Shown piece by piece: positions 37,076 to 61,414 of a stretch of 64,000 nt of DNA. The DNA lies in the NCBI GenBank assembly GCA_017434855.1, contig JAFRUA010000037.1, forward strand, positions 62,001-126,000, read 5' to 3'. This DNA is from Clostridia bacterium. GTDB lineage: Bacteria; Bacillota; Clostridia; Oscillospirales; Acutalibacteraceae. The position numbers and the translations under genes are program-made. How positions within the stretch are numbered: the first letter of the stretch is position 1; each line of letters starts with the position of its first letter. The notes under the pieces are model-generated. The model ran no database searches. It was given only the letters and a program-made list of their open reading frames with translations, and was not told the DNA's origin.

Positions 37076-38881
37076 TTATGTGTTAGAGGACGTTGCCCTT
37101 TCATTGACAATGTCATCCGTAACCACGCCGTTTGTACACGAAAGCATAAAATGATTTGTATTCGTATCGTTCAGAACGCCGACAGTGCAATTGACATTCG
37201 TGAAACCTTCACCATCAAAATATTCTTTCAGCGTATAGCTCAAATTGCGACAATATGTAATGTAATCATCCCAATCTGACAGTGCCGTAGGTGAGCTCGA
37301 TCGTAAAGCGTCATAATAACCGGTCGCAGGAATAATCCAGATTAGAACATCACCTGTTTGTTCGTCATATCCAATTTGATAACTGCCCGGATAGTCTTCT
37401 TCCAGCTTTTTCTTTGCGCCCTGATATGTCCCGCTGCCACAAACAACCTGCGCACTCGGGTACCCCTGCGGCGAAGTCGACGGTGGCGTCACCGGTTTCT
37501 CATCCAAAGCCGGCGGCGTTTCGGGTGTTTCTGGTGTTTCAGGTGTTTCATCCTCAACGGGGTCAATCACAATCGGAATGGCCGCCTTTGTTGTCGTTGT
37601 CTCTTCTGTATCACTGTTTCGATTGTGCATCCACAAGATGGCGAACACCGCGCCGCCAAGGACCACCACCGCCGCCAGCGCAATGGCGATCCACTTGCCG
37701 GCGCCGCCCTTTTTCTGCTGCACCGGGCCGCCGCGCCCCACGGCCATGGTCTGCCCCGGGACCTGCTGCGGCGGAAGTTTTTGCATCACCGGCTGACCCG
37801 GCTGACGCACCAGCGGCACGGGCGGCTGCACGGGCTGGCCGGGCCGTGCCAACTGCACGGTCTCTTCCAGCGGAAGGGTCGCCGTGCGCGTCTGGGCCAC
37901 AGTGACCACGGTTCGCTGGGGTTCCTCGCCCCGCAGCGCCGCTTCAAACGCCGCGATCAGCGCGTCCACGGTCTGATACCGCTGCTCGGGATACATGGCA
38001 AGGCCGTTCATCAGGACCATTTCAAACGGCTTTGAAATCGCGATGCCCAGCTCAGACGGGCGGCGCAGCGGCTCCTGCTCACGCAGGAACGGCTCGGTCG
38101 GGACCACGCCCGTGATGCAGCGATACATCGTGGCGCACAGGGCATAGACGTCAGTCCACGGGCCCTGGTTCTTTTTGGTGTACTGTTCTACGGGGGAATA
38201 GCCGCGCTTGAGCAACACGGAATAGCTGCGCTCATCGTCGGAAAACGCCTCGCGCGCCGCGCCGAAGTCCAGCAGCTTGACGCCTGTTTGCGACAGCATG
38301 ATGTTGTCCGGGCTGATGTCGCGGTGGATGACGCCCTTTTGATGTACGATCACCAACGAATGCATTGCCGGCAGCAGCAATTGATAAACCTCCTGATACG
38401 GCATCTTGCCCACCTTTTTCAGGTGGCCCTTCAGCGTTTCGCCGTTCAGGAATTCCATGACGATATAGGTCGTGTTGTTCTCTTCAAAAAAGTCGCGCAC
38501 GTCCACGATCCCGACCGCGTCATGCAGGCTGGCCAGAATGCGCGCTTCCGCCAGAAACTTTTCTTTGCCCTTTTCAAAGAATTCCCGATTGCGCATGGTG
38601 GCGGTGATGTTGCAGGTGGCGGAATTGTCGCGGTTGACATAGCCGTCCGGATAAAACTCCTTGATGGCAACGGTCATGTCCAGCCGCAAATCGCGCCCCA
38701 TATAGGTGATGCCAAAGCCGCCCTCGCCGATGGCGGCGCCGACCAGATAGCGGCCGCCATTCAGCCGCGTGCCGGGCCGCAGAAAGTTTTCGGGGCAGTC
38801 ATAGACCTGCGGTTTGCCGCAGGCGGGGCAAAACGGCGCGCCGTCCTGCATCGGCTCCATACAATGCATACAATAGCTCAT
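37076..38881 (-). CDS. K1: zinc-ribbon Ser/Thr kinase with ectodomain B
   Basis: 601 residues. Zinc ribbon (Cys 4, 7, 18, 21); kinase ~45-315 with GEGGFG, Lys74 in VAIKE, HRD 186-188 within HRDISPDN, and DFG 205-207. A Pro/Gln linker follows, then one membrane span (~396-418). Outside are a four-fold ETP repeat and a ~120-residue domain (473-594, 'domain B') homologous to the end of K8 (shared WxDF/YxxY, FDxEGF/Y and NGxVxxDI). A sensor kinase; ligand unknown. SD AAGGAGATC. Separated from K2 by 351 nt containing a repeat element, so it may have its own promoter. Confidence 0.92.
   Translation of the reverse strand: MSYCMHCMEPMQDGAPFCPACGKPQVYDCPENFLRPGTRLNGGRYLVGAAIGEGGFGITYMGRDLRLDMTVAIKEFYPDGYVNRDNSATCNITATMRNREFFEKGKEKFLAEARILASLHDAVGIVDVRDFFEENNTTYIVMEFLNGETLKGHLKKVGKMPYQEVYQLLLPAMHSLVIVHQKGVIHRDISPDNIMLSQTGVKLLDFGAAREAFSDDERSYSVLLKRGYSPVEQYTKKNQGPWTDVYALCATMYRCITGVVPTEPFLREQEPLRRPSELGIAISKPFEMVLMNGLAMYPEQRYQTVDALIAAFEAALRGEEPQRTVVTVAQTRTATLPLEETVQLARPGQPVQPPVPLVRQPGQPVMQKLPPQQVPGQTMAVGRGGPVQQKKGGAGKWIAIALAAVVVLGGAVFAILWMHNRNSDTEETTTTKAAIPIVIDPVEDETPETPETPETPPALDEKPVTPPSTSPQGYPSAQVVCGSGTYQGAKKKLEEDYPGSYQIGYDEQTGDVLIWIIPATGYYDALRSSSPTALSDWDDYITYCRNLSYTLKEYFDGEGFTNVNCTVGVLNDTNTNHFMLSCTNGVVTDDIVNERATSSNT
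37513..37550. repeat. 9-bp tandem repeat coding ETP units in K1
   Basis: Four imperfect copies of GGTGTTTCA (minus strand TGAAACACC) encode the ETPETPETPETP stalk directly outside the membrane. Confidence 0.7.
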
Positions 38882-39232: not shown

Positions 39233-42091
39233 TTAATAAAACTCCTCATTCAGCAGCGTGATGCCGTCGATTCGCAAATCGAAATACGGCGCGCTGCGAT
39301 ATTCGGACTCATGGAAGTAACCGTCGGAGACGACTTCGGTATCCGCTTTATAAGCTGCATCGGTGTCGATGTCGGCTATATAGGACGTCAGTTCTTTTCC
39401 GTTCACGGTAAAGGTATCCATATCAAAGACGCGGACAGAACCGTCGCGCAGACAAGCCTTGACTTCTTCAATCTTTTCGGCAGTTCCGGGAGTTGCCACG
39501 GCATCATTCAGCTCTGTGATCACGACGGAACCGGTTTCGATGGTGCCGGTCCAATCCATATCGATCGCGCCACCGGTCGCAGCCTGAGTGATGGCATACT
39601 TCAGATACGGCGTCCAGTCGATCTTCGTCCCGATCAGATAAGTGTTCGGGCACAGCGGCATGGTGCTGCCGTTGTAAGAAACATTCGGTATACCGGCATT
39701 TTCACAGGCCGTCGGCGCCCCATAAGAATCCGCATACTGACTGATGAGCATGCATCCGTTGTTGATCAGCTGGGTGGCAGCTTCTTTTTCCTGTGCTTCA
39801 TCATACCATGAGCCGGTGAAATACACTTCCATCGTCACGCTCGGACAGACCGAACGCGCACCAAGGAAAAACGCGGTATAAGAAGACAACACCTCAGAAT
39901 AGGTGAACGCACCCACAAAACCGATCTTTGCTTCTTCAGCGGCGATCTTGCCCGCTTCGATCATTTCGTTGAGCTTCATGCCGGCGGCGACGCCGGTCAG
40001 ATAGCGGCCCTCATAAATCGCGGCATAGGCGTTATGGTAATTGGAAAGTCCTTCCGTATGCGCCCGGGTGCCGGTCGCATGCGCAAACTGCACATCGGGG
40101 AATTCCTGCGCAGCCTTGATCATGTAGCTTTCATGGCCGAAGGAGTCGGCAAAGATGAAGCCGCAGCCTGAATCGGCAAGGTCTGCCGCCGTTTCATAGC
40201 AGGTGTTGTCTTCGGGAATGTTGGTCTTCAGGATGTACTCAACGCCGAGTTCATCACAGGCGGCTATGGCAGCATCGATGAAGTTTTTGTCATAGGTCGA
40301 GTTTTCATCATGCAGGAAGATGAATCCAACCTTGAAGCTGGTATTCACCGGTGTCGGCGTCGTTGCTTCCACTGTCGTGTCTTTTGACGTGTTCGCTGCT
40401 TCCAGTGCGGCCTCCGCGGCGTCTTTGCTCTCATGCAAAAAGTCTGTTCGCGCCCAGCCCCAGACGTCCTTTCCGCCATAGGTATAGCGGCACAGCACGC
40501 GGTCGATGTCCTGCGCGTCGTCGTGCACGGGTTCGGAATAGACGGTCAGCTTTGCCTTGTCCAGCTCGGAATCGTCCAGATACTGATTCGGAATCTGCAG
40601 CACCACCTCGGCGTCCTTTGACGGGCCGGACCGCAGCTGCACATAGGGCTGCAACTGGGAATCGGTGCTGTAGGCATACTTCGTCTGCGGCGTGTCCAGG
40701 CGGCCAAGGCCGTCCGGAACCGTGACGCTGTCGGACACGTCGGACCAACCGCTGTCTTCTGCGACCTGTACTGCATCGGTGCTGACGTCTGTGTCGTCGT
40801 CCTTGCCCTTGCCGCCGAAGTACCACATACAAATTGCGGCCACGGCCGCCACCAGCAGCACCACGCCCACAAGGATGGGCGCCAGCGCCTTGTTCTTCTT
40901 TTTCGTCGGTACCGCGGGCTGCGCCCCGCTCTGCGGCGAGGCAACCGTCACGGCGTCCGGGCGGCCCGGGGTGACCGGCGGCTGCCATAGAGCCACCGGC
41001 TGCAGCGGCGTTGTCTGCGTTTGCGGCGCGGCGGCCACGGTCGGCGGCGCAACCGGGTTGCCCGGAACAGACCGGCCCTGCGTCACGGCGTCATCCGGCG
41101 CGGGCGTCAGTCGTTCGGTGACGCCCATGACCGCCTGGTTCGGATACCTCAGCGCCGTTTCAAAGGCGCCGATCAGCGTGTCCATGCTTTGATAGCGGTC
41201 TTTTGCGTCCACCGCCAGGCCGCGCAGCAGCACCGATTCAAACGCCGGCGTCATCGGTACGCCAAAGGAAGACGGCGCTTTCAGCGGCTCCTCACGGCGC
41301 AGCAGCGCGTCGGTGGGCACGGCCCCCGTGATACACTTATACATCGTGGCGCACAGGGCATAGACGTCGGTCCACGGCCCCTGGTTGCGCTTGGTATACT
41401 GCTCCACCGGTGCAAAGCCGCGCTTGAGGATGATCGACAGGCTCTTGTCTTCATCGATCACCTCGCGCGCCGCGCCAAAGTCCAATAATTTGACGCCGTT
41501 TTGCGCCAGCATGATGTTATCGGGGCTGATGTCACGGTGGATCAGTCCCATGGCGTGCACCGCCCGCAGCGAGCGCATCACCGGCAGCAGCAGCCGGAAT
41601 GCCTCGCTGTATTCGATACGCTGCACGGTTTTCAGGTGATCCTTGAGCGTCTCACCCCTGAGGTACTCCATGACAATATACGCCGTGTTGTTCTCTTCAA
41701 AAAAGTCGCGCACGTCCACCACGCCCGGCTCGTCGTTCAACGTCGCAAGCAGCTGCGCTTCGGCCAAAAATTTTTGTTTCCCTTTTTCAAAGGTGCCGCG
41801 CTGCTGCGAACCGACCGAAACATTCGTTGTCAGGGTGGTGCTGCGGTTCACCAGGCCGTTCGGATAATACTCCTTCACGGCGACCACATTGCCCAGGCGC
41901 GTGTCCCGGGCAATATAGGTGATGCCGAAGCCGCCCGCGCCGATGGCCGCGCCGACCAGATAGCGCCCGCCCAGAAGCGTGCCGGGCCGCAGGTGGTTTT
42001 CAGGGCACTCATAGGCCTGCGGCTTGCCGCACGCGGGGCAGAATTTTGCGCTGCCGTTCAGCGGCGCCATACAGTGAATACAGTATTCCAT
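39233..42091 (-). CDS. K2: zinc-ribbon kinase with SH3-like and BMP/PnrA-like extracellular domains
   Basis: 952 residues, the largest of the array. Zinc ribbon (Cys 4, 7, 18, 21); kinase ~43-312 with GAGGFG, Lys73, HRDISPDN (185-192) and DFG 204-206. Pro-rich linker, membrane span ~403-425, an SH3-like domain (~478-553, VQLRSGPSKDAEVVLQIP ... WGWARTDFL), then a full periplasmic-binding fold of the BMP/PnrA family (~585-945: VGFIFLHDENSTYDKNFIDA, FIFADSFGHESYMIKAAQEF, EGRYLTGVAAG, KIGFVGAF). BMP proteins bind nucleosides as ABC-transporter lipoproteins; here the domain is fused to a receptor kinase, suggesting direct nucleoside sensing (inference). SD AAAGGAGAGG. Confidence 0.93.
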   Translation of the reverse strand: MEYCIHCMAPLNGSAKFCPACGKPQAYECPENHLRPGTLLGGRYLVGAAIGAGGFGITYIARDTRLGNVVAVKEYYPNGLVNRSTTLTTNVSVGSQQRGTFEKGKQKFLAEAQLLATLNDEPGVVDVRDFFEENNTAYIVMEYLRGETLKDHLKTVQRIEYSEAFRLLLPVMRSLRAVHAMGLIHRDISPDNIMLAQNGVKLLDFGAAREVIDEDKSLSIILKRGFAPVEQYTKRNQGPWTDVYALCATMYKCITGAVPTDALLRREEPLKAPSSFGVPMTPAFESVLLRGLAVDAKDRYQSMDTLIGAFETALRYPNQAVMGVTERLTPAPDDAVTQGRSVPGNPVAPPTVAAAPQTQTTPLQPVALWQPPVTPGRPDAVTVASPQSGAQPAVPTKKKNKALAPILVGVVLLVAAVAAICMWYFGGKGKDDDTDVSTDAVQVAEDSGWSDVSDSVTVPDGLGRLDTPQTKYAYSTDSQLQPYVQLRSGPSKDAEVVLQIPNQYLDDSELDKAKLTVYSEPVHDDAQDIDRVLCRYTYGGKDVWGWARTDFLHESKDAAEAALEAANTSKDTTVEATTPTPVNTSFKVGFIFLHDENSTYDKNFIDAAIAACDELGVEYILKTNIPEDNTCYETAADLADSGCGFIFADSFGHESYMIKAAQEFPDVQFAHATGTRAHTEGLSNYHNAYAAIYEGRYLTGVAAGMKLNEMIEAGKIAAEEAKIGFVGAFTYSEVLSSYTAFFLGARSVCPSVTMEVYFTGSWYDEAQEKEAATQLINNGCMLISQYADSYGAPTACENAGIPNVSYNGSTMPLCPNTYLIGTKIDWTPYLKYAITQAATGGAIDMDWTGTIETGSVVITELNDAVATPGTAEKIEEVKACLRDGSVRVFDMDTFTVNGKELTSYIADIDTDAAYKADTEVVSDGYFHESEYRSAPYFDLRIDGITLLNEEFY

Positions 42092-42141: not shown

Positions 42142-44538
42142 TCAGTGTACGGAATCAAAATAGGTATAGCCGCTTGGAATTTCAAACAGGGAATCCGGCA
42201 CGGTCCCGGTAAGTTTGTTGATCTTCATCTGTCCGTTATCAACATCAATATAGCACAGATCGTCGCCGTCAAAATAGAACCGCGTGGTTGAGCCGTCCCT
42301 TGCGGTGACGTCCTCACAATAGAGCGTCTTGCCGTTCACCGTTCCGGTCGAGGCCGTAATCTCGGAACCGCTGAAGCAGTCCGTAAACTCCGCGATGATT
42401 GCATCAACATCCACTGTATCTTCTTCATCGGTGACCTCGGAATAAATTTTCATGTCCGGAATCAGGATATATGTTTTGCCTGTTGCGGCCTGTTTGATCA
42501 TGATAAAGTCATCATCTTCCGCTTTCACACGCACATAGCTGTCGCCGTTCTTTGTCGCGATTTCAGTGGACTCGCCGTCCAATTCATATTCGAGCAAAAA
42601 CGTCTTGCTCAAAAAGATGTCTCGGCAGGTCTCGACGCGATAATGCGTCGGTTCCGCAACATCGAACCGTGCGACCGACGTCATGCACCAGCCCTGCTGA
42701 CCGTTGTATTCAATAAAGGACCAGTCATCCTTCTGCGCCAGCACGGTCACAGTCGCGCCGTTGGGCACGGTGAACACGATGTCGGCGTCGCCGCTGCGCG
42801 ACCGGCGGACGTTCAGAATGTCGCCGGATCCGGCCGCCGTGTTCAGGTTCACGGTCTTTTCCGCGTGCATGTTTGTGACCGGGATCTCAACGGTCGGCGC
42901 TTCGGTCGCCGATTCCGTGATCGGGGGCTGATAACCGAAATCCACCTCCATCGTGGCAAGCACGGATTCCGCAGCCGAAATCGCGCTCTGATCCAGGCCG
43001 TTCACCTCAAAGCCGATGCCGTAATAGGGCGCGCTGCTGCCCAACCTTGTCAGATAAAGGTAGACATACTTCCCTTCCAGCATACCGCTTGCAACGTCGT
43101 ATGTATATGTTCCGAGGGTTTTGCGTGTCTGCGTAAAGCCGTGTTCTTTTACCAGATTTTCCGCTGTGGTGTTGCCGCCCGCATAAGCGGTCGCGTCTGC
43201 TGCGGTCTCGGTCTCGATCAGCCAGGCCCTGTCTTTTGCCAAAAGGACCTCGCCGCTCATTTCGGCCAGTCCTTCGGCACACTTCACCGTGATGCCGCCG
43301 GTCAGGGTGAACGCTTCCATCTGTACCGGCGGTTCGGTCGGTCCCGTCGGTGCTTCCGTGTCGGTCTCTGTGGGCGTTGTTTCCGGTGCGGTTGTCGTGG
43401 TCGTTTCGCCGTCAATGACCGGCTTGTCATGCTGGATCCGCCACACACCGAAGCCCACGCCGGCAAGGATCAGCACGGCCACAACAGCCGTCACGATCCA
43501 CTTTGCGGCACTTTTCTTTTCCGGTGCGGACGGTACCGGCGGCGCCGGCGGCGCCACAACGGGGATGTCATTGCCCTGCCACACGGGCTGCGGCGGGGCG
43601 GGCGCGTCCATGGCCTGCAGCAGCTCGGCAATGCTGCGATACCGCTGCTCGGGATAGACGGCAAGGCCGCGGGTCAAAACCGCCTGCAGGTTCCGGCTCA
43701 CCGTGGGCGGGAACGGCAGCGGTCGGTTCGGGTCCTGCACACGCTGCAGCGCGTCCGGGGGTGCGGCCCCCGTCAGTGCGCGATACATTGTGGCGCACAG
43801 CGCATAGACGTCGGTCCACGGGCCCTGGTTGGTCCGCGAGTACTGCTCATACGGGGAAAAGCCGCGCTTGACCATGATCGACAGGCTGCGCTCATCCTCT
43901 GAAAACACTTCACGCGCCGCGCCGAAATCCAGCAGCTTGGCGCCGTCGCGGGTCAGCATAATGTTGTCCGGCGCAATGTCGCGGTGCACCACGCCCCGCT
44001 CATGCGCCACCGCCAGCGAATGCATCACCGGGCGCAGCAGGCGGTCCGCCTCCTGCTGCGGCAGCACGCCCACCCGTTTCAGCAGCGCCGCCAGCGTTTC
44101 GCCGCGCAAATATTCCATCACGATATAAGCCGTGTTGTTCTCTTCAAAAAAGTCCTGGACGTCCACGATGCCGTTTTCGTCCCGCAGGCCCGCCAGCAGC
44201 CGCGCCTCTGCCAAAAACTTTGCCTTGCCCTTTTCAAAAAAGGTCAGGCCCTTGGTGGCGGCGGTGACGTTGTGCGTATACATGTTGTTGCGGTTTGCAT
44301 AACCGTCCGGATAAAACTCTTTGACCGCAACCACCACGTCCAGCCGGGTGTCGCGGGCAATATAGGTGATGCCAAAGCCCCCCTCTCCCAGCGCGGTGCC
44401 CACCACATAACGTCGGTTCAGCAGCGTGCCGGGGCGCAGGTGATGTTCCGGGCAGGTCACTGTCTGCGGTTTGCCGCAGCGCCGGCAAACGGGCATGCCG
44501 TCCATTATCGGTTCCATGCAATGAATACAATAGGTCAT
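42142..44538 (-). CDS. K3: zinc-ribbon kinase with ectodomain A, SH3 and LolA-like domains
   Basis: 798 residues from ATG 44538 (GAGGA then 6 nt; the in-frame ATG at 44544 overlaps the SD). Zinc ribbon (Cys 4, 7, 18, 21); kinase to ~310 with Lys73, HRDIAPDN and DFG 204-206. Membrane span ~346-367, Thr/Glu/Pro stalk, 'domain A' (~408-533, shared with K8: LGTYTYDVA, RLGSSAPYYGIGF, VLATMEVD), SH3 domain (~563-625, ILNVRRSRSGDADIVFTVP, GQQGWCMT), and a C-terminal ~165-residue LolA/LppX-like beta domain. SH3 domains of this type often bind cell wall, so a wall-stress role is plausible. 18 nt after K4. Confidence 0.92.
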   Translation of the reverse strand: MTYCIHCMEPIMDGMPVCRRCGKPQTVTCPEHHLRPGTLLNRRYVVGTALGEGGFGITYIARDTRLDVVVAVKEFYPDGYANRNNMYTHNVTAATKGLTFFEKGKAKFLAEARLLAGLRDENGIVDVQDFFEENNTAYIVMEYLRGETLAALLKRVGVLPQQEADRLLRPVMHSLAVAHERGVVHRDIAPDNIMLTRDGAKLLDFGAAREVFSEDERSLSIMVKRGFSPYEQYSRTNQGPWTDVYALCATMYRALTGAAPPDALQRVQDPNRPLPFPPTVSRNLQAVLTRGLAVYPEQRYRSIAELLQAMDAPAPPQPVWQGNDIPVVAPPAPPVPSAPEKKSAAKWIVTAVVAVLILAGVGFGVWRIQHDKPVIDGETTTTTAPETTPTETDTEAPTGPTEPPVQMEAFTLTGGITVKCAEGLAEMSGEVLLAKDRAWLIETETAADATAYAGGNTTAENLVKEHGFTQTRKTLGTYTYDVASGMLEGKYVYLYLTRLGSSAPYYGIGFEVNGLDQSAISAAESVLATMEVDFGYQPPITESATEAPTVEIPVTNMHAEKTVNLNTAAGSGDILNVRRSRSGDADIVFTVPNGATVTVLAQKDDWSFIEYNGQQGWCMTSVARFDVAEPTHYRVETCRDIFLSKTFLLEYELDGESTEIATKNGDSYVRVKAEDDDFIMIKQAATGKTYILIPDMKIYSEVTDEEDTVDVDAIIAEFTDCFSGSEITASTGTVNGKTLYCEDVTARDGSTTRFYFDGDDLCYIDVDNGQMKINKLTGTVPDSLFEIPSGYTYFDSVH

Positions 44539-44556
44539 AGTCATTCCTCACAGCAT

Positions 44557-45945
44557 TCAGTTAAAATGGGCGCTCAAAAAAGAGATGATAATGGCTGCAG
44601 CCACCGCGCCGATGCCCAGCAGCATGAAAAAGTAGCGCAGCACACCGGGCTTTTCGTCGTCCGGGGCGGGGTCGTTTTTCAGGTTCTCCAGCGCATCCAT
44701 CAGCGCATCGTCTGTTTTTGCCGCGTCGTCCGGCTTTTCTTCTTCTTTTCGGTCGTCACGGTGCGGTTTGGCGTCGTCTGCCGGGCGGGGCAGGGATGCC
44801 CGCGCTTCGTCGTTTGACCCGCGCGGCGCCTTTTGCACCGGCAGCGGGCGGGGAGCGGCGCCGGTCGGCCGCGGGGTTGACGGCCGCGGATTTGACACGG
44901 TCGGCCGCGGGTTCGACACGGTTTTTGGCACCGTCGGGCGCGGCTGATGGTTCTGCGGCAACCGGTCGGTCCGGTCTGACACAACCGGCTGCGGGGTGCG
45001 CAGGGCCTTGTTCAGCGCCGTCAGCAGCTCCTGCACGCTCTGGTACCGCCGGTCGGGATAAGGCTCCAGCCCCTTGGCCAGCGCTGCCTCGACCCCCGGC
45101 GGCACGTTCACGCCAAAGGACGCCAGCGGGCGCAGCGGCTGCTGAGAGCGCAGCAGCGGGTCGCCGGGCGCGGTCCCCGTGACGCAGCGATACAGCGTGG
45201 CACACAATGCATAGACGTCGGTCCATGGCCCCTGATTCTTTTTGGTATATTGCTCCAGCGGGGAATAGCCGCGCTTGACCATGATCGACAGGCTGTGTTC
45301 GTCTGCCGAAAACACCTCGCGCGCCGCGCCGAAGTCCAGCAGCTTGGCGCCCCGGCGGGTCAGCATGATGTTGTCCGGCGCAATGTCGCGGTGCACCACA
45401 TTCTTTTTGTGCGCCGCCATCAGCGATTCCATCACCGGCCGCAGCATGGAATACGCCAGCGGGAACGGCAGACGCCCCACGCGCTTCAGCCGCGTGCGCA
45501 GCGTTTCGCCCTTGAGGTACTCCATCACGATATAGGCGGTGTTGTTCTCTTCAAAAAAGTCGCGCACGTCCACGATGCCCGGTTCCTCGTGCAGCTCTGC
45601 CAGCAGGTGCGCCTCGTCCAGGAACTTGCGCTTGCCCTTTTCAAAGAACTCGCGGCCGCGGGTGACGGCGGTGACCGTCTGGGAATGGACGGCGTTGCGG
45701 CTGACATACCCCGTGGGATAGAATTCCTTGACCGCAACGGTCATGCCCAGGCGGATGTCGCGGGCGATATAGGTGATGCCGAAGCCGCCCTCGCCCAGCG
45801 CAACGCCCAGCAGATAGCGCCCGCTCAGCAGCGTGCCGGGCTGCAGATGGTGCGGCGGGCAGTCATAGCTTTGCGCCTTGCCGCAGGCGGGGCAAAACCG
45901 CGCCTCTTCCGCCAGCGGCACCATGCAGTGCATGCAAAATTCCAT
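44557..45945 (-). CDS. K4: zinc-ribbon kinase with C-terminal tail anchor, no ectodomain
   Basis: 462 residues. Zinc ribbon (Cys 4, 7, 18, 21), kinase with GEGGFG, VAVKE, HRDIAPDN and LDFGAARE, then a long basic/Pro-rich then acidic linker with two to three copies of a TVSNPRP unit. A membrane span occupies the last ~25 residues (LLGIGAVAAAIIISFLSAHF). With only a few residues outside, it cannot sense a ligand by itself; it may pair with other receptors or respond through the zinc ribbon or linker. SD AAAAGGAGAGG. It lies between the BspA-like gene and K3. Confidence 0.9.
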   Translation of the reverse strand: MEFCMHCMVPLAEEARFCPACGKAQSYDCPPHHLQPGTLLSGRYLLGVALGEGGFGITYIARDIRLGMTVAVKEFYPTGYVSRNAVHSQTVTAVTRGREFFEKGKRKFLDEAHLLAELHEEPGIVDVRDFFEENNTAYIVMEYLKGETLRTRLKRVGRLPFPLAYSMLRPVMESLMAAHKKNVVHRDIAPDNIMLTRRGAKLLDFGAAREVFSADEHSLSIMVKRGYSPLEQYTKKNQGPWTDVYALCATLYRCVTGTAPGDPLLRSQQPLRPLASFGVNVPPGVEAALAKGLEPYPDRRYQSVQELLTALNKALRTPQPVVSDRTDRLPQNHQPRPTVPKTVSNPRPTVSNPRPSTPRPTGAAPRPLPVQKAPRGSNDEARASLPRPADDAKPHRDDRKEEEKPDDAAKTDDALMDALENLKNDPAPDDEKPGVLRYFFMLLGIGAVAAAIIISFLSAHFN

Positions 45946-45988
45946 AACGTCCTCTCCTTTTCGGGTGCGGGGGTCACAGGCGACCGTG

Positions 45989-47809
45989 TTATTTTGCCGT
46001 GGCGGTATACATCACCGCGCTGTAGGTTTCAGTCCCGTCGGCCTTGACCCGCACGGCGCGGATCTGCATCTTGACCACCTGCCCGCTTGTCAGGTTGCTC
46101 TTTTTGATCCAGGTATCTGTGCTCGATTTCATGCACTTTGGTTTGTCATAGCCCTCTTTATAGACCCAAACCTCATACCGCGATGCGCCGGTCACTTCGT
46201 TCCAGGTCAGATAGATGCCCTTGCTGTTCTGCTGGGTGATGCCGGTGACCTTGCCCAGCTTGATGTTAAACTTCAGCGTTTTCTTTCCGGCATAATTGCC
46301 CATGAAGACGACCTTGACGGCATAGGTTCCGCACTCTTTGCGGCCGGAGGAGTATTTCAATTTATAGTCGGTGTTCAGCTTCAGGTTGTTGCCGTTGGCA
46401 TCCTGCACAATGGGTGTGGGGGTTCGTGCCTTGCCGGTGTAGACGTAAGAGGTTTTTGAAAGCTTGACCGTGGACACTTTATAGATGGTCGTGATCCGTT
46501 TTGCCGCACCGCACTTGGTGCATTTTTTATAGGTCATACCATTGGCGGTAGTGGTCGCTTTTTTGGTGTAGATAGTGTCAGCATAGACGTGGTTACAAAT
46601 TGCCACAAACTTCAGGTCGTATTCCTTCGCATAGGCCTGCGTGGTGGAATTTTTGTAACCGTAAATCGTCGCAGGGGTGTCATCGAACACGAAATCATCA
46701 AATTCACATTGTTTATTGAGGATTTTGACAGTTTTCAAGCTATCACACCACGCAAACGCTCTTTCTCCAATACTTGTCACGCTATCCGGGATCGTCACAC
46801 TAGTCAAACTGCTGCAAAACGAAAACGCGCGACTTTCAATACTTGTCACGCTGTTAGGAATCGTGACAGAGGTGAAGGAATCGCAGTTCGCAAACGCTTC
46901 TTCTCCAATGCTTATCACGCTATTCGGAATCATAACAGAGGTAAGGAAGTCTCCATTCGCAAATGCGCATTCTCCAATGTTTGTCACGCTGTTCGGCATC
47001 GTAAATGTTATTCTTCTGTTCCCGATCGGATATTGGAGCAACGTCGTTTTATTCTTATCATACAGGCAACCGTTTTTATCCGACGCATAGTTCGGATTTG
47101 CAGCAGACACGGTAATTGTGGTGAGAGTATCGCACCACGCAAACGCTCCTTCTCCAATACTTGTCACGCTCTTCGGGATTGTGACGGAGGTAAGGGCAAC
47201 GCACCCCCCAAATGCACCGTCTCCAATGCTTGTTACGCCGTTCGAGATCGTGACAGAGCTGAGTGCATGACAAGCATAAAAAGCATAATTTCCAATACTT
47301 ATTACGCTGTTCGGAATCGTGACGGAGGCGAGGGCAGTACAAGCATAAAAAGCATAATTTCCAATACTTGTCACGCTGTTCGGAATCGTGATAGAGGTGA
47401 AAGCAAAGCACCACGTAAACACATTATATCCAATACTTTTCACGCTGTTCGGGATCGTGACAGAGGTAAGGGAACCGTGAGCATAAAACGCACAATCCCC
47501 AATGCTTGTTACGCCACTTTTGACGATACCTTTTTTGATATTACCTCGAATATTATACCACGGTGGTGTTTCATCACCGTAATCGTCATAATTCTTCATC
47601 GCACCTTTTCCACTGATTGTCAACACACCGTCGCTATCCAGTACCCACTTGACATTGTCGCCCTGTGCGCCGCAGTTGCCGCTTTCAATCACGCTGGCCG
47701 CGTTCGCGTGCATTGTGCACAGCACAAGTACCGCAAAAAGCAGTGCCGAAAACAGACCCAGCCACATCATGCTGTGCCGGAATGAGGTTTTCTTTGCATT
47801 CGTCTTCAT
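45989..47809 (-). CDS. BspA-type leucine-rich repeat surface protein 1
   Basis: 606 residues from ATG 47809 (AAGGAGT 9 nt upstream). Signal peptide cut near HANA-AS. About ten 23-residue BspA/LRR_5 repeats (pattern TSIGxxAFxxCxxLTSVTIPNSV, ~95-430), then a CNHVY...KKCTKCG segment, and two C-terminal beta domains, the last fibronectin-III-like (GIYLTWNEVTGASRYEVWVY). BspA relatives mediate adhesion to host or other cells. No LPXTG or SLH motif is visible. The repeats are more A/T-rich than the flanks. It sits between K5 and K4, 22 and 43 nt away, so probably co-transcribed. Confidence 0.9.
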   Translation of the reverse strand: MKTNAKKTSFRHSMMWLGLFSALLFAVLVLCTMHANAASVIESGNCGAQGDNVKWVLDSDGVLTISGKGAMKNYDDYGDETPPWYNIRGNIKKGIVKSGVTSIGDCAFYAHGSLTSVTIPNSVKSIGYNVFTWCFAFTSITIPNSVTSIGNYAFYACTALASVTIPNSVISIGNYAFYACHALSSVTISNGVTSIGDGAFGGCVALTSVTIPKSVTSIGEGAFAWCDTLTTITVSAANPNYASDKNGCLYDKNKTTLLQYPIGNRRITFTMPNSVTNIGECAFANGDFLTSVMIPNSVISIGEEAFANCDSFTSVTIPNSVTSIESRAFSFCSSLTSVTIPDSVTSIGERAFAWCDSLKTVKILNKQCEFDDFVFDDTPATIYGYKNSTTQAYAKEYDLKFVAICNHVYADTIYTKKATTTANGMTYKKCTKCGAAKRITTIYKVSTVKLSKTSYVYTGKARTPTPIVQDANGNNLKLNTDYKLKYSSGRKECGTYAVKVVFMGNYAGKKTLKFNIKLGKVTGITQQNSKGIYLTWNEVTGASRYEVWVYKEGYDKPKCMKSSTDTWIKKSNLTSGQVVKMQIRAVRVKADGTETYSAVMYTATAK

Positions 47810-47831
47810 TTTGCATGACTCCTTCCTATGC

Positions 47832-49760
47832 TCAATCCCAGTCGCCCCACGGGTCGGCCGTCGTCGATGGCCGCCGGGTCGTTGTATAATAATGCGTCGT
47901 TGTATAATAATGCGTTGTTGTGTAATGATGCGTTGTGGTCGGGCGGCGCGTCGTGGTCGGCGCTTTAGTGGTGGTCGGCGCTTTGGTGGTTGTCGGCGCC
48001 TTCGTAGTCGGTTCTGTCGTTGATTCTGTCGTCTCTTTCGGCTTTTTCGTGGTCGTGGTATCCGTCGCTTCGGTCGGGGCATTCTCGTCAGACACCGCGC
48101 CGGGTTCCGTAGTGTCGTCGGTCAATGTCGGATCATCCGTATCTTCAGGCGCATAATAGGAAATCTCCGTATTCCCGTATTCATCCGAAACAATTTCGCC
48201 GATGACTTCTCCAAGTTCATTCGTGACCAGGTTATCAGCCGCAGCGTCGTCTGCGACGATCATATCGGTATCGTCTGTCGAAACATCCGTGTCCCCCCTG
48301 CTGCGGCTGCCCACCGCGATCACGATGGCCAGCGCCACCACGGTCACCAGTACGATCAAGACCGCGATCTTTCCTGTGCCGGACGGTTTCTTTTCGGCCG
48401 GTTGCTTTTCCGGCTCGGGTTTCACCGGCGCTGGGCGGTCGGGCGCCGGCTGTGGGCGCGGCTCTGAGATCCGACGCGGTTCCGGCTGCGGGCGCGGCTC
48501 TGAGATCCTGCGCGGTTCCGACTGCAGGCGCGGCTCTGAGATCCTGCGCGGTTCCGACTGCGGGCGCTGCGGCACAACCGTCGGTGCGTCCTTGCGCACG
48601 GGCTTGGCGCGCTTCGGGCGCTGCGGCGTGGACGGCAGGGTCGGCGGCACGGTTTTTTCCTCCGGGTCCGGCGGTGTCGACGGCAGGGTCGACGGCAGGG
48701 TCGGCGGCGCGGTGGGCGGTTCCGGCGTCGGCAGGGCCGACGGCAAGGTCGGTTCGTCTGATTTCACGGGCACGGCCGGCTTTGGCGCCTCCGGGCGCGG
48801 GGTCGGCACAGCCAGCGCGGCGTCCAGCGCACGCAGCAGCTCGCCCACCGTGCGATATCGCTTGTCTGCCGTCACTGCCAGACCTGTGGTCAGGGCGGCC
48901 TTCATCCGGTCGTTCAGCGGCGCGTCGTCAAACGGCAGCGGCTTGTCGGGTTCCGTGATCCGGTCCAGCGCTTCTTCCGGCGCCTTGCCCGTCACCGCGC
49001 GATACAGCACCGCAGTCAGGGCATAGACGTCAGTCCACGGGCCCTGATTCTTTTTGGTGTATTGTTCATAGGGCGAATAACCGCGCTTGACCAGAATGGA
49101 CAGGCTGTTTTCGTCCGTGGTGAACACCTCGCGCGCCGCGCCGAAGTCCAGCAGCTTGGCGCCGCGTTTGGTCAGCATGATGTTGTCCGGCGCAATGTCG
49201 CGGTGGATCACGTTCTTTTCGTGCGCCGCCGCCAGCGATTCCATCACCGGGCGCAGCATGGCATAGGCCTCGCGGAACGGCAGACGCTCGCTGGCCTTCA
49301 GGTGCGCCTTGAGGGTTTCGCCCTTGAGGTACTCCATCACGATATAGGCGGTGTTGTTCTCTTCAAAAAAGTCGCGCACGTCCACAATACCCGGCTCGTC
49401 GTTCAACTCCGCCAACAGGTGGGCCTCGTCCAGGAACTTGCGCTTGCCCTTTTCAAAATAGTCCCGGCTGCGCATGGTGGCGGTGATCGTCTGTGAAAAC
49501 GCCGTGTTGCGGCTGACGTACCCCATGGGGTAAAACTCTTTGATCGCGACGGTCATGCCCAGGCGGATGTCGCGGGCGATATAGGTGATGCCAAAGCCGC
49601 CCTCGCCCAGCGCGACGCCCAGCAGATAGCGCTTGCCGCTCAAAAACGTGCCGGGCTGCAGATGATGCTCCGGGCAGTCGTAGCTTTGCGCCTTGCCGCA
49701 TTCGGGGCAAAACGCCGCGCCGTCCTCCAACGGCTCCATGCAATGCATGCAAAAGTTCAT
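47832..49760 (-). CDS. K5: zinc-ribbon kinase with Thr/Tyr/His repeat tail
   Basis: 642 residues. Zinc ribbon (Cys 4, 7, 18, 21); kinase with GEGGFG, Lys74, HRDIAPDN and DFG 205-207. A 145-residue Pro/Ser/Arg linker contains a 12-residue unit (SEPRRISEPRPQ type) repeated about three times. Membrane span ~463-485. The outside part is acidic, then wholly low complexity: KAPTTT three times, then HYYTTT three times, ending DPWGDWD. No folded sensor is evident; the tail could be a glycosylated or wall-spanning stalk. SD GGAGAGACC. It lies between the two BspA-like genes. Confidence 0.92.
   Translation of the reverse strand: MNFCMHCMEPLEDGAAFCPECGKAQSYDCPEHHLQPGTFLSGKRYLLGVALGEGGFGITYIARDIRLGMTVAIKEFYPMGYVSRNTAFSQTITATMRSRDYFEKGKRKFLDEAHLLAELNDEPGIVDVRDFFEENNTAYIVMEYLKGETLKAHLKASERLPFREAYAMLRPVMESLAAAHEKNVIHRDIAPDNIMLTKRGAKLLDFGAAREVFTTDENSLSILVKRGYSPYEQYTKKNQGPWTDVYALTAVLYRAVTGKAPEEALDRITEPDKPLPFDDAPLNDRMKAALTTGLAVTADKRYRTVGELLRALDAALAVPTPRPEAPKPAVPVKSDEPTLPSALPTPEPPTAPPTLPSTLPSTPPDPEEKTVPPTLPSTPQRPKRAKPVRKDAPTVVPQRPQSEPRRISEPRLQSEPRRISEPRPQPEPRRISEPRPQPAPDRPAPVKPEPEKQPAEKKPSGTGKIAVLIVLVTVVALAIVIAVGSRSRGDTDVSTDDTDMIVADDAAADNLVTNELGEVIGEIVSDEYGNTEISYYAPEDTDDPTLTDDTTEPGAVSDENAPTEATDTTTTKKPKETTESTTEPTTKAPTTTKAPTTTKAPTTTRRPTTTHHYTTTHYYTTTHYYTTTRRPSTTADPWGDWD
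47879..48007. repeat. 18-bp tandem repeats coding the K5 tail
   Basis: Two adjacent arrays with an 18-bp period: ~47879-47938 (units encoding HYYTTT) and ~47950-48007 (units encoding KAPTTT), near-identical within each array, so prone to slippage. Confidence 0.75.
48450..48566. repeat. 36-bp tandem repeat in the K5 cytoplasmic linker
   Basis: Just over three copies of a 36-bp unit (GGTTCCGRCTGCRGGCGCGG...) encode the SEPRRISEPRPQ-type linker repeats. Confidence 0.75.
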
Positions 49761-49795
49761 GGTGGTCTCTCCTTTTTCGGGGGTGTGGCGTCTCG

Positions 49796-51823
49796 TTACT
49801 TCGCCTTGGCGGTGTAACTCACCGCACTGGATCCTACAACCGCACCGCCCACTTCACGCACGGCGCGAATCTCCATTTTGACCACCTGACCGCTTGTCAG
49901 GTTGCTATTTTTGATCCAGGTGTCTGTGCTCGATTTCATGCATTTCGGTTTGCTGTAGCCCTCTTTATAGACCCAGACCTCATACCGCGTGGCACCAACC
50001 ACTTCGTTCCATGTCAGATAGACGCCTTTGCTGTCCTGTTGGGTGATGCCGGTGACTTTGCCCAGCCTGATCTTGAACTTCAGCGTCTTCTTTCCGGCAT
50101 AGTTGCCCATGAAGACGACCTTGACGGCATAGGTTCCGCACTCTTTGCGGCCGGAGGAGTATTTCAATTTATAATCGGTGTTCAGCTTCAGGTTGTTGCC
50201 GTTGGCGTCCCGCACAACGGGTGTGGGCTTGCGCACCGCACCGGTGTAGACGTAGGAGGTTTTGGAAAGCTTGAGGGTGGAAACTTTATAGATGGTCGTG
50301 ATCCGTTTCGCCGCACCGCACTTGGTACATTTTTTATAGGTCATGCCATTGGCAGTGGTGGTCGCTTTTTTGGTGTAGACGGTGTCTGCATAGACGTGGT
50401 TACAAATCGTCACAAACTTCAGGTCGCTTTCTTTAGCATAGGCTTCAGCGGTGGAGTTTTTGTAACCGTAAATAGTCGCGGGGGTTTCGTTAAATGCTTG
50501 TTCACCGATTCTGCAATTAGAATTCATCACTTTTACTTTTTTCAGACTATCACAATATCCAAACGCCCACCCTCCAATAGTTATAACACTGTCGGGGATT
50601 GTCACGCTTCTCAGGCTTCTGCATCCGCAAAACGCACCCCAACCGATGCTTGTCACACTGTCTGGAATCGTGAAGGATGTCCTATCGTTTCCAATCGGAT
50701 ATTGAATCAGCGTCTCTTTTGTCTTGTCATATAAACAGCCATTTTTATCTGACGCGTAATTTGGATTGTCTGCGTCCACCTTTATTTCATTCAAAAACGA
50801 TGCACCCATAAACGGACTCTTGCCAATGCTTGTCACACTGTTCGGAATCGATACGCTCATCAAACCGCTACAACCGCTAAATGCCCAACCACCGATGCTC
50901 GTCACACTATTCGGAATCGTCACGCTCGTCAAACTGTTACAATCATAAAACGCATACTCACCGATACTCGTCACGCTATTCGGAATCTTGATACTTATCA
51001 GGTCGCTGCATCCGTAAAACATACCCTCACTGATTTTTTTCACTTTATTTGGAATCGTCACGTTTGTCAGGTTTCTGCATCCCCAAAACGCATAATCAGC
51101 AATACACCCTGTGTCTGACTTGATTGTATAGACATTAGAGAGAGAAGTCTTTGCTTTGATCAGGTATTGTCCAATATAAAGGACGCCGTTTGACCAATTT
51201 GAAGCATTCTCGTAGAGAGCTGTTCCAACAAACGCCATATCACCGATACTCGTCACGCTATTCGGTATCTTGATGCTTGTCAGGCTTCTACATTCGTAAA
51301 ACGCAGATTGTCCGATACTCGTCACGGTGTCCGGGATTGTCACACTCTTCAGGTTGCCACAGAACCAAAATGCATAACTGTTGATATTCGTCACGCTGTT
51401 CCCAATTGCTATGCTCGTCAGACTACTACAATAGGAAAACGCGCTATTACCGATGCTCTCCACACTATCCGAAATCTTGATACTTGTCAGGCTTCTACAT
51501 TCGTAAAACGCACACCCGCCGATGTTCGTCACTCCATTTTTAATCACTATTTTTTGAATACTTCCCCGATTCACATACCATGGAACAGCTTCAGGATCCC
51601 CGTGATCCTTCATCTCCCCTTTACCGCTGATCGTCAGCACACCATCGCTGTCCAGCACCCACTTGACGTTATCCCCGTCTTTGCCGCAGTCGCCGCTTGC
51701 CACCACACTTGCCGCGTCCGCCTTCGCTGCGCAAAGCAGCAGTACCGCGCAAAACAGCGCCGCAAACAGACCCAGCCAAATCAGGCTGCGCCGGAATGCA
51801 CTTGCCGTTGTTGTTGTCTTCAT
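49796..51823 (-). CDS. BspA-type leucine-rich repeat surface protein 2
   Basis: 675 residues from ATG 51823 (AAGGAG 8 nt; GTG 51832 is too close to the SD). Signal peptide ending near AKADA-AS. About a dozen BspA/LRR_5 repeats, then the same C-terminal part as protein 1 (CNHVYADTVYTKKATTTANG, and the GVYLTWNEVVGATRYEVWVY domain) with near-identical sequence. The conserved ends and diverged, longer middle show that the two arose by duplication and that the repeat region evolves faster. Between K6 (15 nt) and K5 (35 nt). Confidence 0.9.
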   Translation of the reverse strand: MKTTTTASAFRRSLIWLGLFAALFCAVLLLCAAKADAASVVASGDCGKDGDNVKWVLDSDGVLTISGKGEMKDHGDPEAVPWYVNRGSIQKIVIKNGVTNIGGCAFYECRSLTSIKISDSVESIGNSAFSYCSSLTSIAIGNSVTNINSYAFWFCGNLKSVTIPDTVTSIGQSAFYECRSLTSIKIPNSVTSIGDMAFVGTALYENASNWSNGVLYIGQYLIKAKTSLSNVYTIKSDTGCIADYAFWGCRNLTNVTIPNKVKKISEGMFYGCSDLISIKIPNSVTSIGEYAFYDCNSLTSVTIPNSVTSIGGWAFSGCSGLMSVSIPNSVTSIGKSPFMGASFLNEIKVDADNPNYASDKNGCLYDKTKETLIQYPIGNDRTSFTIPDSVTSIGWGAFCGCRSLRSVTIPDSVITIGGWAFGYCDSLKKVKVMNSNCRIGEQAFNETPATIYGYKNSTAEAYAKESDLKFVTICNHVYADTVYTKKATTTANGMTYKKCTKCGAAKRITTIYKVSTLKLSKTSYVYTGAVRKPTPVVRDANGNNLKLNTDYKLKYSSGRKECGTYAVKVVFMGNYAGKKTLKFKIRLGKVTGITQQDSKGVYLTWNEVVGATRYEVWVYKEGYSKPKCMKSSTDTWIKNSNLTSGQVVKMEIRAVREVGGAVVGSSAVSYTAKAK

Positions 51824-51838
51824 GGATAACACTCCTTC

Positions 51839-52774
51839 TTACCATCTATCCAGCATTTTACAGAATTCTTCGATCGACCGGCAGCGGTCCTTCGGCTGCA
51901 GCGCCAGGCCTTTGGTCAGCGCCGCCTGTGCCGCCGGGGACACGTCCGTGCCGTCAAACGACACGCCTGCGTCCGGGTTGCCGAGCCGCTCCAGCGCATC
52001 CGTCGGCGGGTGGCCCGTCACGCAATGAAACAGCGTTGCGCAAAACGAATACACATCCGTCCATGGGCCGAGATCTTTTTTCAGATAGATTTCCGGCGGG
52101 GAATCGCCGCGGCTGACCATGACCGGCCGGGCATCTTTGATGCGGGCCGCCAGGTCGGTGTTCATCAGTACCGCGCCTTCGTCGGTGATCAAAATGTTTT
52201 GCGGGCTGACATCAAGGTGAAGGATGCCCTTTCGGTGCATGCACGACAGCGCGTCCATCACCGGGCGCAGCAGCGCGGTGGCTTCATCGAACGGCAGCCG
52301 GCCGCCGCGTTTTTTCAGGTACGCTTTGAGCGTGTCGCCCCGCAGATACCGCAGGATGACATAAGCGGTGTTGTTCTCTTCAAACGCATCCAACGGGGCC
52401 GCAAACCCGGGCGCCGCACGCAAGCCGCGCAGCAGCTTTGCTTCGGCCAGGAACCGGTGCCGGCTCTTTTTAAAGTCGCCCCGCTTCTGCGGCAGGGGGA
52501 GGACGTCGGACGACGACGACGCGCTGCGCTGCACATAGCCCGCGGGAAAGAACTCCTTGACCGCGACTGTCATTTCCAGCCGCGTGTCATGCGCAATATA
52601 GGTAATGCCGAAGCCGCCGGACCCCAGCGCCGTACCCAACAGATAGCGTCCGCTCAGCAGCGTGCCGGGCTGCAGATGATGCGGCGGGCAGGCATCGCTT
52701 TGCGCCTTGCCGCACTTGGGGCAAAACGCCGCGCCCGCTTCCAGCGGCTCCATGCAGTGAATGCAAAATTCCAT
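51839..52774 (-). CDS. K6: soluble zinc-ribbon pseudokinase
   Basis: 311 residues, ending right after the kinase fold with no linker, membrane span or sensor. Zinc ribbon intact (Cys 4, 7, 18, 21) and nucleotide Lys73 kept, but the catalytic loop is HLDVSPQN instead of HRDIxPDN and the DFG segment (LLDFGAAR elsewhere) reads LMNTDLAAR. The activation loop SRGDSPPEIY is also altered. The reading frame is continuous, so this is not a sequencing artefact. Its first ~75 residues are nearly identical to K7, indicating recent duplication. Probably an allosteric partner, scaffold or decoy for the other kinases. SD GGAGAG. Confidence 0.85.
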   Translation of the reverse strand: MEFCIHCMEPLEAGAAFCPKCGKAQSDACPPHHLQPGTLLSGRYLLGTALGSGGFGITYIAHDTRLEMTVAVKEFFPAGYVQRSASSSSDVLPLPQKRGDFKKSRHRFLAEAKLLRGLRAAPGFAAPLDAFEENNTAYVILRYLRGDTLKAYLKKRGGRLPFDEATALLRPVMDALSCMHRKGILHLDVSPQNILITDEGAVLMNTDLAARIKDARPVMVSRGDSPPEIYLKKDLGPWTDVYSFCATLFHCVTGHPPTDALERLGNPDAGVSFDGTDVSPAAQAALTKGLALQPKDRCRSIEEFCKMLDRW

Positions 52775-52828
52775 GGTTCTCTCCTAAATCAATTTACAGT
52801 ACGCGGTGCACTGTTCCTTTTTTTGCGG

Positions 52829-54616
52829 TCAGCCGTCCAATGTGACCCACATCGCGGGTCGGACGGCGTTGCCTTCGTAATTGGCAAAATCGCCTTCAAC
52901 ATTGATGCGGCCGTCGTCGTCAACATAAGGCGCATAGTGGGAAACCTTCTGCGACAACCGCAGCCACCACCAGCAGGCGCCCGTGCCGGCGTCCTCGCCC
53001 TCGTCGCTCACCCACACCCGCTGCGCCAGCGCAAACTTTGTCGGCAGGCACACGCGCGCGGGGTTTGATTTGAAATACATCGCCGCCTCATCGGCGTTCA
53101 GAAAGAATACCCTGTCGGGCGTGTTGTCGATATAGGCGTCGCGATAAAACGGGTCGTCGCCCATCACGGTGTCTGTGAACTGGATGCGGCTTTGTTCCAT
53201 CGGCGTGAATGCGGCATTCAGGAACTCCCCGTTCAGCCATTCCCGCAGCGAGCAGGTCTCCCACGTCACCTTTTTCCATTTTTTATTATATGGCTTGCAG
53301 TCCAGCGCATACTTGCTGATGAGCAGCGCCCGGTTTTCCTCCCGCGCAAGAACCAGCCATTCGATAGGCGATTTTTCGTGCGCCTGCCCGCTCTCCTGCG
53401 GATAGCTGCCGAAAAACACCGTCTGTCCAACGGCAGCGTTTGCAAGCCGCTGCACCGGTCTGCGTGCCGGGGCTTTGACCGTCGCGTCTGTTTGTGAAGC
53501 GGGGCTGCCGCGCCACACGGCTTCGGTCGCCCGGGTGTGGTCGATCTGCTGCGGCTTCACCACCGGCTGCGGCTGCGGGATCGGCGCCGGCACCACGCCC
53601 ATGCGGGTGGGTTCCACCGCCGGCAGCGTGTGCTCATCCTTCGGCATAACCGGCGGGCGGTCCGGGACAGCCGCGGCGTCATCCAGCGCGCGCAGCAGCT
53701 CGCCGATGCTGCGGTACCGCTGCTCCGGAAACACCGCCAGGCCCCTGGTCAGCACGGCCTGCATCTGCGGGCGCAGCGCAGCGCCGTCAAAGTTCAGCGG
53801 CGCGTCCGGCGCGCGCATACGCTCCAGCGCATCCTCCGGCGGGTGACCGGTGACGACCCGGTAAAACACCGCGCACATGGAATACACGTCGGTCCACGGG
53901 CCCTGGTTCTTTTTGGTGTACTGCTCATACGGCGAATAGCCGCGCTTGACCAGAATGGACAGGCTGCGCTCGTCCTCCGAAAAGACCTCCCGCGCCGAAC
54001 CGAAATCCAACAGTTTTGCGCCGCGCCGGGTCAGCATGATGTTGTCCGGCGCAATGTCGCGGTGCACTACGTTTTTGGCATGCGCCGCAGAAAGCGAATC
54101 CAGCACGGGGCGCAGCAGCGTATACGCCTGGCGCAGCGGCAAAGCACCGGTGCGGTTCAGATACGCTTTGAGCGTTTCGCCCCGCAAATATTCCATCACA
54201 ATATAGGTCGTGTTGTTCTCTTCAAAAAAGTCGCGCACGTCCACAATACCGGGTTCATCATGCAGGCTGGCCAGAATCTTCGCTTCGGCCAGAAACTTTG
54301 CCCGGCCTCTTTCAAAGAAATCGCTTCCCTGCGTGGTGGCGGTGATGCCGACCGAGGTCACCCCGTTGCGGGTCACATAGCCCACGGGATAAAACTCCTT
54401 GACCGCGACTGTCATTTCCAGCCGCGTGTCATGCGCAATATAGGTAATGCCGAAGCCGCCGGACCCCAGCGCCGTACCCAAAAGATAGCGTCCGCTCAGC
54501 AGCGTGCCGGGCTGCAGATGGTGCGGCGGGCAGTCATCGCTTTGCGCCTTGCCGCACTTGGGACAAAACGCCGCGCCCGCTTCCAGCGGCTCCATGCAAT
54601 ACATGCAAAAGTTCAT
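52829..54616 (-). CDS. K7: soluble zinc-ribbon kinase with C-terminal DUF6273 domain
   Basis: 595 residues. Zinc ribbon (Cys 4, 7, 18, 21); kinase with Lys73, HRDIAPDN and DFG 204-206 (GSARE follows). The Pro-rich linker contains DHTRATEAVWRG, also found in K9. No membrane span; the DUF6273 domain (~397-595: FFGSYPQESG, IEWLVL, YALDCKPYN, CWWWLRLS, AVRPAMW) follows directly. K9 carries the same domain outside the membrane, so in K7 it should sense or bind something inside the cell, unless the protein is exported in an unseen way. SD GGAGAG. 54 nt before K6. Confidence 0.9.
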   Translation of the reverse strand: MNFCMYCMEPLEAGAAFCPKCGKAQSDDCPPHHLQPGTLLSGRYLLGTALGSGGFGITYIAHDTRLEMTVAVKEFYPVGYVTRNGVTSVGITATTQGSDFFERGRAKFLAEAKILASLHDEPGIVDVRDFFEENNTTYIVMEYLRGETLKAYLNRTGALPLRQAYTLLRPVLDSLSAAHAKNVVHRDIAPDNIMLTRRGAKLLDFGSAREVFSEDERSLSILVKRGYSPYEQYTKKNQGPWTDVYSMCAVFYRVVTGHPPEDALERMRAPDAPLNFDGAALRPQMQAVLTRGLAVFPEQRYRSIGELLRALDDAAAVPDRPPVMPKDEHTLPAVEPTRMGVVPAPIPQPQPVVKPQQIDHTRATEAVWRGSPASQTDATVKAPARRPVQRLANAAVGQTVFFGSYPQESGQAHEKSPIEWLVLAREENRALLISKYALDCKPYNKKWKKVTWETCSLREWLNGEFLNAAFTPMEQSRIQFTDTVMGDDPFYRDAYIDNTPDRVFFLNADEAAMYFKSNPARVCLPTKFALAQRVWVSDEGEDAGTGACWWWLRLSQKVSHYAPYVDDDGRINVEGDFANYEGNAVRPAMWVTLDG

Positions 54617-54642
54617 GGTTCTCTCCTTGGCTGATGTTCAGA

Positions 54643-56775: not shown

Positions 56776-57006
56776 GATGTCCTCTCCTTGTCAGTTCAGA
56801 GTTCAGAGTTTAGAGTTCAGAGTTAGAATTTTTTATCAATATAAAACGCCGAAGCGCTTGCTTTTCGCGCCCTCATCAGGGAGCCTATTTTGCCTCCCTC
56901 ACTGAGGGAGGTGTCACGCGCCAACACGATTCGCGGTGCGGTGACAGCGTCAAATGCGCGTGACGGAGGGAGTCAAAGGACAGCCCGCAGGGCTGACACA
57001 GGGAGT
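56776..57006. repeat. Intergenic repeat stretch left of DUF559, with 106-bp repeat copy 1
   Basis: Next to K8 are four TTCAGAG-type heptamers (56795-56822). The 106-bp repeat copy 1 spans 56870-56975 (from CCCTCATCAGG to GGAGGGAGTCA) and contains CCTCCCTCA/TGAGGGAGG and further inverted segments. It continues into a CAGCCC/GGGCTG hairpin (56983-56995) up to the DUF559 stop. Confidence 0.75.
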
Positions 57007-59540: not shown

Positions 59541-59557
59541 GGTCCTCTCTCCTGCTG

Positions 59558-61372: not shown

Positions 61373-61414
61373 CGGTTCGTCCTCCCTTCTTTGATCGTTC
61401 CCATTTTTTTGATG

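Follow-up and report, generated by a model that had tools for sequence, protein, structure and literature searches.

A receptor-like Ser/Thr kinase of a Clostridia bacterium with a putative purine-sensing ectodomain derived from a BMP transporter lipoprotein of the same genome

Introduction

To our knowledge, few bacterial receptor kinases of the Hanks type have a known small-molecule ligand, the exception being the PASTA kinases that sense cell-wall fragments. The locus described here, in a stretch of 64,000 nt of Clostridia DNA (the window), raises the question of whether such a kinase can obtain a sensor from a nutrient transporter and, if so, from which transporter and for which ligand. 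It contains a gene, K2 (39233..42091, minus strand), whose single ORF encodes a 952 aa receptor-like Ser/Thr kinase with matches to both Pfam Pkinase and Pfam Bmp. The habit of the BMP family, that of a free lipoprotein serving an ABC importer, is absent in K2, where the signal peptide and lipobox are replaced by a kinase, a helix and a linker.

Results

K2 is composed, from its N terminus, of a zinc ribbon, a Hanks kinase domain, a proline-rich linker, a hydrophobic helix, a weakly SH3-like stretch, a linker rich in Thr, Pro and Glu, and the BMP domain (coordinates written with two dots are on the minus strand). The zinc ribbon (residues 4–21; 42029..42082) was recognized by its sequence pattern, C-x2-C ... 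C-x2-C, the corresponding Pfam match (Zn_Ribbon_1, E 0.0015) being under the cut-off. The kinase domain (residues 46–261; 41309..41956) matches Pfam Pkinase with an E of 4e-31 and PpkA (5hnv) with an E of 2e-48; its motifs are intact (VAVK, HRD-x4-N in the form HRDISPDN, and DFG, then GFAPVEQY), so that the fold match together with the Lys, HRD and DFG residues identifies the product as a predicted Hanks-type Ser/Thr kinase. A single transmembrane helix (residues 403–421; 40829..40885; Kyte–Doolittle score 2.88) is flanked by KKKNK on the kinase side and DDDTD on the BMP side, and because lysines precede the helix and aspartates trail it, the kinase is predicted to lie inside the cell and the BMP domain outside. 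The initial annotation also placed an SH3-like domain ahead of the BMP domain. A suggestive SH3_3-like pattern (VQLRSGPS...GWARTDFL) is visible by eye, but the Pfam SH3_3 match has an E of 0.064 over 19 residues, the AlphaFold2 pLDDT there is about 55, and no relatives of residues 430–590 were found in the other kinases of the set; residues 471–555 (40427..40681) are best described as a possible SH3-like spacer that is not established.

The proposal that K2 carries a complete BMP-family fold on its outer side, by contrast, was borne out by Pfam, PDB, model and topology alike, and the domain (about residues 586–952, C-terminal extension included; 39236..40336) extends slightly beyond the ~585–945 first assigned to it. 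Pfam Bmp (PF02608) matches residues 606–877 with an E of 8.7e-24 and 84.5 bits, the cut-off being 24.1, and the best PDB sequence matches of the ectodomain are 3s99 (E 2.7e-28) and AtzT (6pi5, E 3.2e-26), with PnrA far behind (2fqw, E 0.0021). The AlphaFold2 model of K2, which was also compared by Foldseek, has a pLDDT of about 90 in the BMP part, and comparison of this predicted model with AtzT (Z 37.9 over 328 residues) reveals the two-lobe fold of periplasmic binding proteins; further structural matches are 3s99 (Z 36.4), the guanosine-binding Lbp (31.4) and PnrA of T. pallidum (30.1), the last of these being the comparison that had been suggested as a check and one that places the domain inside the BMP/PBP fold. 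AtzT (6pi5/6pi6) and the Brucella protein 3s99 share with K2 the full-length fold including the C-terminal extension, the aromatic sandwich and most polar pocket residues, but they are free periplasmic proteins, whereas in K2 the domain is joined to a kinase, with two of its pocket residues changed. The nucleoside-binding proteins PnrA (2fqw, 6y9u), BmpD (6shu) and Lbp (7x0r) belong to the same fold family (Z 28–31) but are farther from K2 in both sequence and structure, and their ligands are nucleosides rather than bases.

The source of this ectodomain can be traced. A free BMP paralogue in the K2 genome (L034:5945-7132) is 76% identical to it, and the alignment of the two needs no gap anywhere along the mature domain; the paralogue bears a lipoprotein signal (LSLAAC), and its gene is followed by those for an ABC ATPase and two BPD_transp_2 permeases, which together make up a complete BMP importer operon. 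The fusion boundary in K2 falls exactly where the lipoprotein signal peptide of the free paralogue ends, so that the graft swaps out just the signal peptide. A tree of 139 domains pairs the fused copy with the free one as its sister (SH-aLRT 84), the two falling in a group of near relatives that has a support of 98; this relationship in itself argues for capture within the lineage. The G+C fraction agrees between the fused BMP part and the free gene (0.527 and 0.537), the N-terminal kinase part of K2 standing at 0.633. From the gapless alignment, the tree and the G+C match to the free gene we conclude that the fusion arose by capture within the lineage: the K2 ectodomain descends from a free transporter protein of its own genome. 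The capture was not very recent, since dS between the two copies (NG86) is about 1.4, near saturation, and the corresponding dN/dS of about 0.13, a rough value that is soft because dS is saturated, indicates purifying selection on the pair.

The genomic context of the free BMP genes bears on the class of ligand. A purine riboswitch (RF00167) precedes a free BMP gene, in the same orientation, at ten loci that score above the Rfam gathering threshold (L085, L087, L089, L097, L099, L102, L108, L114, L121 and L124), and a model constructed from three of these ten yielded further loci. The distance from riboswitch to start codon, where the latter could be placed, is 139–199 nt, L085 being the exception at 770 nt. 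All the purine riboswitches found upstream of free BMP genes have the motif GACTA at the specificity position, which marks the guanine class; examples are L114:5598-5699, L087:5666-5764 and L102:5669-5768, and these and others stand upstream of free BMP–ABC operons in gut and rumen Clostridia. No riboswitch was detected upstream of the free gene of the K2 genome, nor upstream of K2 or elsewhere within the window. The riboswitches tie the BMP transporter family to purines, and do so independently of structure. Of the solved relatives, AtzT binds guanine at 110 nM and 3s99 has been modelled with adenine (PMC6834077). Because the nearest solved relatives bind bases and close free orthologues are preceded by purine riboswitches, K2 is likelier to have a purine base than a nucleoside as its ligand. 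The suggestion of the initial annotation that K2 senses nucleosides directly can thus be retained in part: a fused receptor with most of its ligand residues is present, but the nucleoside should give way to a purine base as the likelier ligand.

The equivalents of eight AtzT ligand-site residues were read in 139 distinct relatives, namely 138 close free orthologues and the secreted fusion protein L033 described below. The pocket Y-S-F-E-G-W-H-D is almost invariant in the 138 free orthologues, and the pocket of the free Clostridia proteins equals that of 3s99 in the printed PDB sequence alignment. In K2 the residues are Y600, S650, F651, E733, S737, W762, Y786 and D788 (Y-S-F-E-S-W-Y-D), so that six of the eight (Y600, S650, F651, E733, W762 and D788) are kept and two are changed (G737S and H786Y), both at positions otherwise invariant in the free orthologues. 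Ligand-residue conservation, which had been suggested as a check, holds for the aromatic sandwich (Y600 and W762) and for D788. When set against the residues of AtzT itself (Tyr45, whose equivalence was inferred through 3s99, Ser97, Phe98, Glu165, Trp194, Asn218 and Asn220), K2 keeps the Y, S, F, E and W; Asn220 is replaced by D, as in 3s99 and the free orthologues, and the equivalent of Asn218 is Y in K2 and His in the free orthologues. Over the whole domain K2 deviates in 8 of 90 near-invariant columns, more than any other of the 139 sequences, and the free paralogue in 1; several of the eight (A732S, G737S, S740A and H786Y) fall in or close to the pocket along the sequence. On account of these deviations the function of K2 may have drifted; we read the changed columns as pocket re-tuning, with drift as the alternative. 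Since two otherwise invariant pocket positions are changed, an altered ligand specificity is probable, and K2 probably binds a purine-like ligand that is perhaps unlike the ligand of the transporter protein.

The same residues might be taken to mean that the domain binds a small ligand other than a purine, G737S and H786Y having shifted the pocket to another flat ring compound. The two positions are otherwise invariant in the 138 free orthologues, and their equivalents in AtzT, Asn169 and Asn218, hydrogen-bond to each other beside the ligand in a single network, in a purine site through which AtzT also accepts triazines (PMC6834077); moreover, L033, although unrelated, has independently paired Y with a hydroxyl residue, T, at these positions. 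We nevertheless think such a ligand unlikely, because the aromatic sandwich, S650, E733 and D788 are all kept in K2. A second alternative is that the ectodomain binds no ligand and is a protein-contact or spacer module which, for example, docks on the ABC permeases of its parent and reports transport. The large number of broken columns would suit such a role, as would the normal docking of the parent on permeases that are present in the K2 genome, but retention of the direct ligand residues, the absence of any gap from the BMP domain and a dN/dS well under 1 make it improbable. A purine-like ligand thus remains our preferred reading, and direct sensing is the best interpretation of K2, given that the BMP-fused kinase is real and that most ligand residues are kept.

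K2 belongs to an array of 12 paralogous kinases with exchanged ectodomains, 11 of them in the window and one on contig C66, which the kinase tree and a survey of the genus identify as a single lineage-specific expansion that the other genomes of the genus lack. The array is headed by a gene for a PP2C-type phosphatase (62631..63500; Pfam PP2C, E 1.3e-9), followed by K4, K5 and K7–K12 with BspA-type leucine-rich-repeat proteins interspersed (44557..62593; Pfam, kinase tree and genus survey) and by K3 (42142..44544), which has an SH3_3 ectodomain and lies 50 bp upstream of K2 on the same strand. On the other side of K2 is K1 (37076..38881), its nearest relative by kinase domain, with 58% identity over residues 1–431 (kinase, linker and helix; tree support 91/74) and an unrelated ectodomain; since the two are nearest in the kinase part and unrelated outside, an ectodomain swap is indicated. 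The outer parts of the array members are SH3_3, DUF6273, a coiled coil or nothing, and related kinases from other genera have BspA-type LRR, PASTA, Big_2 or Sel1 domains or, in genome G133, the solute-binding domain SBP_bac_8.

Several further features of these loci were noted. The G133 protein (L175:6780-8807), a zinc-ribbon Hanks kinase related to K2, has an ectodomain of the SBP_bac_8/SBP_bac_1 type and represents an apparent second and different sensor capture; no free paralogue of its solute-binding domain was found in its own genome. K7 (window 51839-52774) has HLD in place of HRD, has lost DFG (MNTDLA) and is without a membrane helix, and is likely a pseudokinase. The BspA-type proteins between the kinase genes are at window 45989-48082 and 49796-51832, and a DUF559/MTES-type endonuclease-like ORF is also found inside the array (window 57007-57408). 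Just outside the window, likewise at the array's head, a protein with TIR, zinc ribbon and FHA domains (L185:4848-6710) has as neighbours PP2C phosphatases and another kinase, one with NPCBM/TPR; this protein and the phosphatases are possible partners, or an output arm, of the array. In genome G028 a related kinase (L173:11197-13044) combines an RDD membrane domain and a C-terminal FHA domain in one chain.

Among the genomes searched, only one carries the kinase–BMP fusion. No second example was found in roughly 800 genomes, some of which recur between sets: the frame is absent from the 33 other genomes of the genus (34 including its own), from 200 genomes of the family searched with full-length K2 and from 147 of the order for which all open frames were listed, and it does not occur among the matches listed for 291 genomes of the class or in the best 80 of 575 GTDB relatives. 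Among the annotated matches listed for plasmid records there were just free BMP proteins. Those of the longest BMP frames elsewhere that were inspected proved to be secreted dockerin fusions or ParB-like fusions, not kinases. They include L033 (L033:2235-5588), a secreted protein of 1117 aa that unites dockerin, BMP and SBP_bac_5 domains; an exported protein of 1752 aa with GH16, WD40, dockerin and BMP domains (L152:597-5852), with a similar one in genome G275 (L151); and a protein of about 640 aa (L153:409-2331) in which a BMP domain accompanies a region weakly similar to ParB-N (E 0.042). Similarly long frames that match BMP in part are common in the order and class. That the fusion is an assembly chimera of the metagenome bin, or a rare non-functional event, is very improbable: although the genome is in 77 contigs, no other genome searched has the fusion and G+C falls from 0.633 to 0.527 across the junction, the join is in frame and exactly at the mature-domain start, the fused copy matches known free genes at 76% at best and none identically, the DNA past its stop codon is unrelated, kinase genes lie on both sides of K2 in one contig, and equality of G+C between the free copy and the fused domain is expected from capture.

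Discussion

We propose, with a probability of about 0.62, that K2 is a transmembrane receptor kinase whose ectodomain was copied from the genome's own BMP lipoprotein and in which sensing of an extracellular purine-like molecule controls the kinase. The pocket, with its altered specificity, would bind such a molecule outside the cell, a base being likelier than a nucleoside; the two BMP lobes would close on the ligand and so change the packing or dimerization of the ectodomain, and this in turn would control trans-autophosphorylation of the inner kinase. The signal might then pass to local phospho-signalling proteins, namely the PP2C phosphatases and the TIR–zinc ribbon–FHA protein. More tentatively, and at somewhat less than even odds, K2 may be regarded as a purine-class receptor kinase produced by capture from its own transporter and re-tuning of the pocket, and as one product of a general swapping of ectodomains in the zinc-ribbon kinase arrays of gut bacteria. 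If so, tandem arrays of this kind gain new senses by ectodomain swaps, transporter parts included, and K2 would show how receptors arise from transporters. Since the parent of K2 is identified and the ligand class is predictable, the receptor and transporter copies can be compared for binding and specificity.

No paper joining PF02608 with Pkinase was found in the literature that could be searched, the nearest being a 2005 survey and the work on PknG. That survey reported solute-binding domains on Ser/Thr kinases of Streptomyces coelicolor and Nostoc (Krupa and Srinivasan, PMC1262709), and a kinase with a solute-binding ectodomain is therefore not a new idea. Like K2, in which the two are joined across one membrane helix, those fusions combine a solute-binding domain with a Hanks kinase in a single polypeptide; the domains are of the Glu/Gln and ANF-receptor types, and in the accessible part of the survey BMP is not named and no parent transporter protein is identified (PMC1262709). 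The remark in the initial annotation that no example was described among Hanks kinases accordingly stands for the BMP fusion, within the searchable literature, but not for solute-binding domains at large. In mycobacteria the solute-binding lipoprotein GlnH has been proposed to act on the kinase PknG via GlnX (PMC6069109), a system that resembles K2 in that a solute-binding protein controls a Ser/Thr kinase according to a nutrient, as we infer for K2, but it comprises three proteins and has an amino-acid ligand, whereas K2 unites sensor, membrane helix and kinase in one polypeptide and would be an example of a Ser/Thr kinase that senses a nutrient as a single protein. The PASTA kinases (PrkC/PknB/StkP) share with K2 a kinase inside, one helix and a sensor outside; the kinase part of K2 aligns to the PknB_PASTA_kin model (NF033483) with 179 bits, far under the cut-off of 450, and K2 has no Pfam match to PASTA repeats. 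Kinase–solute-binding fusions themselves being known, what appears new here, within the literature searched, is the BMP family as a kinase ectodomain, and one with a clearly identifiable parent.
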